Shown here: in pieces, positions 7,337-63,583 of the stretch
Layout: each line of letters begins with the position of its first letter
How positions within the stretch are numbered: position 1 is the stretch's first letter
The notes under the pieces: model-generated
Seen by the model: the letters and a program-made list of their open reading frames with translations, nothing else
Database searches by the model: none
Told to the model about the DNA's origin: nothing
Program-made: the position numbers and the translations under genes
Assembly (NCBI GenBank): GCA_902603905.1
Contig: CACKWM010000002.1
Coordinates: 62,001 to 126,000, forward strand
Source: an uncultured Pelagibacteraceae bacterium
Lineage (GTDB): Bacteria; Pseudomonadota; Alphaproteobacteria; Pelagibacterales; Pelagibacteraceae
Reading direction: 5' to 3'
Length of the DNA: 64,000 nucleotides

Positions 7337-7786
7337 TTACAAATCTGATAAATATATTACTGATTTTTCAACTATTTTATTTATTAAAGTATTTTCAATT
7401 TCTTTTTCATATTGTTTTAATGCAAATTTGTCTGAATTATTACTATAATTAAAGCTTGATGAAAAACTTTCTGTTTTATTATAGTTTCCACTAATAATAT
7501 TAATATTTAACTCAATTATCATTTGAAACCTTGATGGGTCACCTTTATTATCTTTTTGTGTAGTTTCAATTTTTTTAACTGAGTTAATTTCTATTTGAAT
7601 TATATTTTTACTACTTTTATTAGAAAATATTTTTAATTTATTTGCAATTTTTGAGTTTAATTTACTCGTTTTTTTTTGGGATATTTTTTGTATATAAAAA
7701 TTTTTTTCCTTTGAAGAGTATATTGGGGCATATCCACAATTATTAAGAATAAACGATGCAATAATGATAATGATTATTTTTCTCAT
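7337..7786 (-). CDS. lptE: LPS-assembly lipoprotein LptE-like
   Basis: Lipoprotein signal ending ...[11 protein letters not shown]; located between leuS and holA. Confidence 0.8.
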
Positions 7787-60862: not shown

Positions 60863-62077
60863 CTATATTAAATCTATTAGTTTTTGTCTTTTTTTAATAA
60901 TATTAATTTTAGATCCTTTAATTAAAATTTCTATTGGTTTTGGCCTAACGTTATAATTTGAACTTAAAGACATACCATATGCACCCACATCACATATTAT
61001 TATTAAATCTTTTTCTTTTAATTTTTGAAAATTTTTTGAAGTTAAAAATTTATCAGTACTTTCACATATTGGTCCAACAAATTCATAAGTTTTTTTAGAA
61101 CTTTTACTTTTTTTAATTACAGGTATAATTTTGTGATTTGCACCATAGAGCGCTGGTCTTATTAAATCATTCATAGCAGAATCTAATATTATAAAATCTT
61201 TGTTTTTAGTTTTTTTTATATAAATTATTTTTGATATAAGTATACCAGTATCACCAATAATAGATCTTCCCGGTTCAAAAATAATTTTAGAATTGTGATT
61301 TTTTAAAAATTTGCTTATTGAAACACTATACCTTTTATAATTTAGTTTTTTACTTTTATTTTGGTAAGGAATTCCAATCCCCCCACCTAAATCAACAAAT
61401 TCAAATTTATGATTTGATTTCCTTATAACTCGATCTATTACTTTAAGCATTTTTTCATAAGGAAGATTATTAACTATTTGACTTCCTATATGGACACTAA
61501 GACATTTAAGATTAATGTATTTAGATTTTTTTGTATATTTTACCAATTCAGTAAATTTTTTTTCAGTGAGACCAAATTTATCTTCTTTTTTCCCAGTAGA
61601 AATTTGATTTATGGTTCTAGCATCTGTATTTGGATTTAATCTGATTCCAATATTTACTATTTTTTTTTTATATTTAGCAATTTTTTCAATTTCAATTAAT
61701 TCACTTTTAGATTCTACATTTATTAATAATATATTTTTATTAATTGCATAGTTTAATTCTTTTGTAGTTTTCCCAACTCCTGAAAAAACAATTTTTTTGT
61801 TATTTATTCTAGCCTTTAAAGCTTTCATTAATTCTCCCATTGAAACAACATCTGCCCCAACCCCAAATTTTTTAATTTCACGTAATAAATTTACATTTGC
61901 ATTTGATTTAACAGAAAAACAAATTAGTGGACTAAAAGATTTAAAATTTTTTTTAAAACTGATTATATTTTCTTTTAATTTTTTATATGAATAACAATAA
62001 ATAGGTGTACCAAATTTTTTTGCTAAATATTTAGCTCTAACACCTTCTATTGAAAAACTTTTATTTAAATATTTCAT
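60863..62077 (-). CDS. lysA: Diaminopimelate decarboxylase
   Basis: FSVKSNANVNLL, FVDLGGGIGIPY, GPICESTDKF; 404 aa. Confidence 0.97.
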   Translation of the reverse strand: MKYLNKSFSIEGVRAKYLAKKFGTPIYCYSYKKLKENIISFKKNFKSFSPLICFSVKSNANVNLLREIKKFGVGADVVSMGELMKALKARINNKKIVFSGVGKTTKELNYAINKNILLINVESKSELIEIEKIAKYKKKIVNIGIRLNPNTDARTINQISTGKKEDKFGLTEKKFTELVKYTKKSKYINLKCLSVHIGSQIVNNLPYEKMLKVIDRVIRKSNHKFEFVDLGGGIGIPYQNKSKKLNYKRYSVSISKFLKNHNSKIIFEPGRSIIGDTGILISKIIYIKKTKNKDFIILDSAMNDLIRPALYGANHKIIPVIKKSKSSKKTYEFVGPICESTDKFLTSKNFQKLKEKDLIIICDVGAYGMSLSSNYNVRPKPIEILIKGSKINIIKKRQKLIDLI

Positions 62078-62193
62078 TAAATTTTAGTAATAAAGATATT
62101 ATTTTTTTTTGCTTTGTATTCTGGATCTCCTTTTTTTCCACAAGAAAATAAAAAGAATATACACAAAGTTATTAATATTGTTTTTTTAATCAT
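62077..62193 (-). CDS. LptM/YifL-like small lipoprotein (38 aa)
   Basis: MIKKTILITLCIFFLFSCGKKGDPEYKAKKNNIFITKI; lipobox LFSC followed by GKKGDPE, like the LptM 'CG.KGP' signature; between argH and lysA; stop overlaps the lysA ATG (TAATG). Confidence 0.82.
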   Translation of the reverse strand: MIKKTILITLCIFFLFSCGKKGDPEYKAKKNNIFITKI

Positions 62194-62194
62194 T

Positions 62195-63583
62195 TTAATT
62201 TTTTTTATGTTTAGTTATCATCTTTTTGATATTATCAAAAGATGTTCCGCCATATGATTTTTTAGATCTCACTGAGTATTCTAAATCAAAAATCTTTAAT
62301 ACATCGTTTGTGAGTTTTGGTTCTATTTTATTTAATTCATTTATATTCAATTCATCTAGTTTTTTTTTCTTTTTTTCAGCGTAATTAACAATTAAAGCAG
62401 TAACTTGATATGCTTTTCTAAAAGACATGGCATGATTTTTTACAAGATAATCCGCTAAATCAGTTGCTGTGATATATCCAATATTTGCAAGTTCTAGCAT
62501 TTTTTTTTTATTAGGTTTAAAATTTTTTAAAATTTCGTTAAGTATTAAAACACAATTAATTAATGTTTCATTTGATTTAAAAACTATTTCTTTATCATCT
62601 TGAAGATCTTTAAAATAAGATAATGGTAAACCTTTTAATATTGTTAGCATTGAAAATAAATTTCCAAAACTAGTACCTGATTTACCTCTTAAATATTCTA
62701 GTAGATCAGGATTTTTTTTTTGTGGCATTATTGATGAGCCTGTGACCACGCCATCAGAAAGATTAATAAGATTAAACGCATCTGAATTCCATATTATGAA
62801 TTCTTCTGCTATTCTTGAAATATGTAAAGAACATACTGAAACACTATATAAAAAATCTAAAACAAAATCTCTATCAGAAACAGTATCAATTGAATTATTT
62901 GTTGGTTTTTTAAAACCTAATTTTTTTGTTGTAAAATTTCTATCTATATTAAATGAAGTTCCAGTTAAAGCTGCTGCACCAAGTGGGTTTTCAGACAAAC
63001 TTTCTAAATTATTAATAAATCTTTGTTTATCTCTTTTAAACATTTCCACATAAGCTAATAGATAATGAGCAAAAGATACTGCTTGGGCATTTTTTAGGTG
63101 TGTAAATCCAGGCATGATTGTTTTCACATTTTTTTCTGCAATTTTTAAAATTATATTTACTGTATTGTCTAAATTCTTATTTATTTTAATAGTCGCTGAT
63201 CTTAACCACATTTTAAAATCTGTGATTACTTGATCATTTCTAGATCTTGCAGTGTGAATATATCCTGCCTCATCACCAATTAATTCAAATAATCTATTTT
63301 CAATATTTATATGAATATCTTCATATTTTTTGTTGTACTCAAATTTTTTTTTAACTATCTCTTTTTCGATTTTATTCAAACCATAAATAATTTTGTTTTT
63401 TATTTTAAATGATATTATTTTTTGTCTAAACAACATTTCAACGTGTGCAATAGATCCTACAATATCTTCTTTATAAAGTTTTTTATCAATCTCTATGGAA
63501 CTTCCAATTTTTTGAAAGGCAGTTGAGGTATTTTTTTTAATTCTTACATTCCAGATTGTTTTGTTGTTTTTATTTTTGTTCAT
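62195..63583 (-). CDS. argH: Argininosuccinate lyase
   Basis: ARSRNDQVITDFKMWLR, GSSIMPQKKNPD, C-terminal SYGGTS. Confidence 0.98.
   Translation of the reverse strand: MNKNKNNKTIWNVRIKKNTSTAFQKIGSSIEIDKKLYKEDIVGSIAHVEMLFRQKIISFKIKNKIIYGLNKIEKEIVKKKFEYNKKYEDIHINIENRLFELIGDEAGYIHTARSRNDQVITDFKMWLRSATIKINKNLDNTVNIILKIAEKNVKTIMPGFTHLKNAQAVSFAHYLLAYVEMFKRDKQRFINNLESLSENPLGAAALTGTSFNIDRNFTTKKLGFKKPTNNSIDTVSDRDFVLDFLYSVSVCSLHISRIAEEFIIWNSDAFNLINLSDGVVTGSSIMPQKKNPDLLEYLRGKSGTSFGNLFSMLTILKGLPLSYFKDLQDDKEIVFKSNETLINCVLILNEILKNFKPNKKKMLELANIGYITATDLADYLVKNHAMSFRKAYQVTALIVNYAEKKKKKLDELNINELNKIEPKLTNDVLKIFDLEYSVRSKKSYGGTSFDNIKKMITKHKKN

Follow-up and report, generated by a model that had tools for sequence, protein, structure and literature searches.

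A short open reading frame (ORF) between argH and lysA, found in the window analyzed here (a stretch of 64,000 nucleotides from an uncultured Pelagibacteraceae bacterium), most likely encodes the SAR11 orthologue of LptM, a small lipoprotein known to assist in assembling the lipopolysaccharide exporter of the outer membrane. We hold it highly probable that the whole is best explained by a SAR11 lptM gene with a predicted role at the gate of LptD and an inherited position between argH and lysA. The protein is of a known kind, here extended to SAR11, and is ordinary for its class though it falls below the standard family cut-offs. LptM is thereby added to the repertoire of SAR11, which is among the most abundant marine bacteria and in which the curated models miss it. 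A survey of Pfam motifs has assigned LptM to 57% of alphaproteobacterial genomes (PMC10567701); as the curated models miss the SAR11 protein, surveys of this type probably undercount. SAR11 can also be regarded as a natural experiment showing which parts of LptM and LptD survive in a pared-down system: LptM has retained the lysine at mature position 4, and LptD its glutamate together with the C173/C725 pair, which provides support from an independent lineage for the structural model derived from Escherichia coli. In the literature library searched, no paper names both Pelagibacter and LptM.

A conserved gene at the argH-lysA junction

The 38-codon ORF is translated as MIKKTILITLCIFFLFSCGKKGDPEYKAKKNNIFITKI, and removal of a 17-residue lipoprotein signal leaves the mature sequence CGKKGDPEYKAKKNNIFITKI (Table 1). 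The argH stop codon (62195-62197, minus strand) ends one base ahead of the lptM ATG, while the TAA of lptM shares one base with the lysA ATG (62075-62077, minus strand), so that the TAATG overlap described in the first-pass annotation is correct. The same annotation had located lptE in the window, which is plausible for the gene listed in Table 1.

Table 1. Features at and around the lptM locus, in window coordinates.
Feature	Position	Strand	Evidence or remark
lptM coding sequence	62077..62193	-	38 aa + stop; in 107/107 loci; one copy in own genome
Lipoprotein signal peptide, residues 1-17, lipobox L-F-S-C	62143..62193	-	sequence
Conserved core C18-Y26 (CGKKGDPEY)	62116..62142	-	dN/dS and hhalign; lipidated Cys; matches E. 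coli LptM 20-28
Variable tail, residues 27-38	62080..62115	-	dN/dS ~0.43
TAATG overlap, lptM stop/lysA start	62075..62079	-	sequence
argH, upstream neighbour	62195..63583	-	TIGR00838, 529.7 bits
lysA, downstream neighbour	60863..62077	-	TIGR01048, 421 bits
Probable lptE, translocon partner	7337..7786	-	PF04390 E 0.002, below cut-off; adjoins leuS

A chance origin of the ORF is excluded. The motif CGxKG occurs once in the six frames of the whole window, in this ORF, and 100 windows simulated with a first-order Markov model contained no lipobox-CGxKG ORF and, on average, 0.15 bare CGxKG motifs. For comparison among relatives, 109 loci around lysA were gathered, the window's own included, two of which end before the junction; by its named relatives the window belongs to the Pelagibacteraceae (SAR11). 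In all 107 loci that hold it, an ORF with a lipobox and CGxK lies between argH and lysA, and the gene proposed from the window is therefore real and conserved. A profile made from the relatives together with the window copy detects a single copy in the genome of origin (C2:124080-124193, E 3e-18) and matches 16 of 16 near-complete relatives, giving in each genome one strong match, at lysA; the few additional matches in those genomes are all weak.

Which residues define the gene? Loci failing a strict CGxKG pattern were read one by one, and all loci were then extracted uniformly with the pattern CG-x-K, which left no locus outside. The lipobox with Cys-Gly and the lysine at mature position 4 are invariant in alignment A1 and in all extracted loci, the invariance of the lysine among the latter being partly by construction because it belongs to the extraction pattern. 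The lipobox residue at -1 is S, A or G in 84 of 85 unique relatives. Mature position 5 is G in the window copy and in 65 of the 85 unique proteins of the subset compared, and N, S, A, E, D or T in the others. Of the signature first proposed, the lipobox, Cys-Gly and Lys are conserved but the last G is variable: CGxKG, not strictly kept, seems the wrong signature here, and what is conserved as a core is CG(K/R/V)K, in most cases with xDP after it.

Comparison of the window lptM with ten near relatives by the Nei-Gojobori method gave a dN/dS of 0.25 overall; the value is about 0.06 in the ten-residue stretch that begins at the lipobox Cys, 0.27 in the signal and about 0.43 in the tail. These are summed pairwise values and are rough for so short a gene, but the contrast is nonetheless large. 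The gene is under purifying selection, which is strongest in the core. Copies across the order are 37-54 aa long. The suggestion that 38 aa is unusually short and might define a minimal functional core was rejected, since many alphaproteobacterial LptMs above the cut-off at argH-lysA have 39-46 aa, which makes the length ordinary, and the sufficiency of the N-terminal part for binding to LptDE has already been published (PMC12644819).

Probable identity of the protein as LptM

The window protein scores 17.5 bits (E 0.0033) against the NCBIfam model NF047847, for which the cut-off is 27.7 bits. This cut-off of a 31-position model is a detection threshold and no biological feature; orthology was therefore rested on synteny and bridging members, and the claim was lowered accordingly. 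PF13627 of Pfam does not match the window protein, and a search of its own genome with PF13627 gave no match. Unlike the window copy, a protein of the sister family from the same order, encoded at this same locus (L019, 40 aa), passes NF047847 with 31.3 bits, and its sequence CGKKGPLELP bridges CGLKGPLYFP of E. coli and CGKKGDPEYK of SAR11. At E <= 0.05 the same model picks up 28 of the 38 aligned sequences. Profile comparison by hhalign with an alignment of E. coli and alphaproteobacterial LptMs gave a probability of 97%, part of which is generic lipobox signal. Direct detection of E. coli LptM in the PDB with the order's profile was also tried and is weak: YifL comes third, at E 0.24, among unrelated lipoproteins, and the best match is an unrelated lipoprotein that also starts with SCGKK. 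The identification as LptM made from the window alone has good support from synteny, from bridging sequences and from partner residues, while the score of the window copy remains below the NCBIfam and Pfam cut-offs.

Synteny was assessed with 30 cut-off-passing LptM loci of the class, fetched as the best-scoring matches with position playing no part in the choice; 25 of them are flanked by argH and lysA. This placement in the operon has exceptions, because two LptM genes above the cut-off in the class (L122 and L124) were found without argH or lysA nearby. LptMs at argH-lysA elsewhere in the Alphaproteobacteria share gene order and core with those of SAR11 and are similar in length, whereas SAR11 mostly has DP where the others have PL, DL or PP and then E-x-P, and it scores lower. 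The sister-family LptMs of the same order (L019 and L028) have the locus and the length of SAR11. Comparison with Gammaproteobacteria is represented by E. coli only. LptM of E. coli (YifL; PF13627/NF047847) has, like that of SAR11, a lipobox Cys followed by Gly, a Lys at mature position 4 and a short tail, and both genes lie near a gene of the lysine/DAP pathway, dapF in E. coli and lysA in SAR11; in contrast, the E. coli protein has 67 aa and the window copy 38 aa, and the tails have no evident similarity.

Could this be a small lipoprotein of unrelated function that shares the CGxK start by coincidence? SCGKK is indeed seen in lipoproteins of other kinds, some of the members are also matched by generic lipoprotein models, and the resemblance to E. 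coli LptM in direct comparison is weak. Coincidence is nevertheless unlikely when the argH-lysA position is common to cut-off-passing LptM genes across the class, a member of the same order bridges the gap from above the cut-off, each genome has a single copy and the partner residues of LptD are conserved. The short tail and the low family-model scores might alternatively be taken as marks of a decayed, non-functional LptM remnant, but this is hardly credible for a gene that all the intact junctions examined retain, within small genomes, and that has a core dN/dS of about 0.06.

The junction itself invites another reading, in which the ORF couples its translation to that of lysA or acts as a leader, TAATG passing ribosomes to lysA and the peptide being incidental. 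The one-base overlap recurs in 67 of 107 loci; elsewhere the spacing differs, the distance to lysA ranging from -19 to +16, E. coli lptM adjoins dapF instead, and constraint at the protein level is strong in the core, not in the tail. A coupler with an incidental peptide is accordingly very improbable, although translational coupling to lysA may be a secondary feature of an LptM gene.

LptD and a predicted role at its gate

In E. coli, LptM promotes correct oxidation of LptD, so that DsbC becomes essential without LptM, and Lys23 of LptM has been predicted to pair with E275 of LptD (PMC10567701). In the genome of origin, LptD (796 aa) is encoded at G000:C3:66698-67669, away from the lptM locus. 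An alignment of 24 LptDs of the order with E. coli LptD and 30 other alphaproteobacterial LptDs revealed equivalents of E. coli C173 and C725 in 24 of 24 LptDs of the order and a Glu at the E275 position in 23 of 24, while equivalents of C31 and C724 are absent from the order's LptDs. Judged from these sequences, the set formed by the inter-domain cysteines and the acidic residue predicted to face Lys23 is present, though pared down. Because C31 and C724 are absent, the disulfide rearrangement of E. coli cannot run unchanged, and the role of LptM in oxidation must differ in detail. A third LptD cysteine lies a few residues past the C173 equivalent in all 25 sequences aligned. The LptD of the genome of origin (L147) has the pair C238/C245 and C754 near the C-terminus; apart from the signal region, the LptDs of the order have hardly any cysteines beyond such a pair and a C-terminal one. 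Of 41 genomes, 38 contain a DsbA-like oxidase family, and the N-terminal domain of DsbC was found in none of the 41 relatives; the missing DsbC is not special to SAR11, since DsbC_N was found only in E. coli among the control genomes. E. coli has two inter-domain disulfide positions in LptD, whereas SAR11 has one and no DsbC was found in it.

An outline of the predicted process is as follows: after export, SAR11 LptM would receive its lipid on Cys18 and then be placed in the outer membrane. On the basis of E. coli structures and models together with conservation, roughly the first ten residues of the mature protein would lie at the lateral gate of LptD, as would the acyl chains, and Lys21, which is invariant and stands at mature position 4, would meet the conserved acidic residue of LptD. 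LptM may hold LptD in a state permitting a disulfide between the equivalents of C173 and C725, the only inter-domain disulfide position that SAR11 LptD retains, and the presence of LptM may ease the opening or mobility of the gate. What the structures show of LptM is mainly its first ten residues after the signal, and E. coli LptM without residues 44-67 still co-purifies with LptDE (PMC12644819; PMC12685063); the short variable tail of SAR11 LptM would be dispensable for binding. The placement between argH and lysA would reflect an inherited operon position, not a function in lysine synthesis.

Cysteine-pair alleles

Among 85 unique Pelagibacter-type LptMs, the mature part has no extra cysteine in 75, exactly two in 10 and one in none. 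Alleles with the pair (e.g., CGKKGCP...C) were found at L069, L074, L079, L080, L083 and L086, and further at L088, L095, L097, L104 and L106. They are scattered on the argH and lysA trees, and their flanks are nearly identical to those of alleles without the pair; L074 and L008, for example, share 96% identity in ArgH and 95% in LysA, with quite different LptM tails. This scatter suggests that small segments have been exchanged, or that the pair has been gained and lost repeatedly. Co-inheritance of LptM and LptD alleles as a sign of interaction is not supported: for nearly the same genomes, the LptM allele type requires five label changes on the LptD tree vs. four on the argH and lysA trees. 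As the cysteine-pair type does not track the LptD type, no functional conclusion has been drawn. It is improbable that SAR11 LptM acts on a pared-down system (a single inter-domain disulfide position, another LptD cysteine close by as the third and no DsbC-type isomerase) in which the cysteine-pair alleles, about a tenth of those in SAR11, would take part directly in LptD disulfide exchange. The LptDs L218 and L207, from the genomes of L008 and L073, belong to different deep clades despite about 95% LysA identity; in this pair LptD is far more divergent than the housekeeping neighbours, as if alleles had been swapped.
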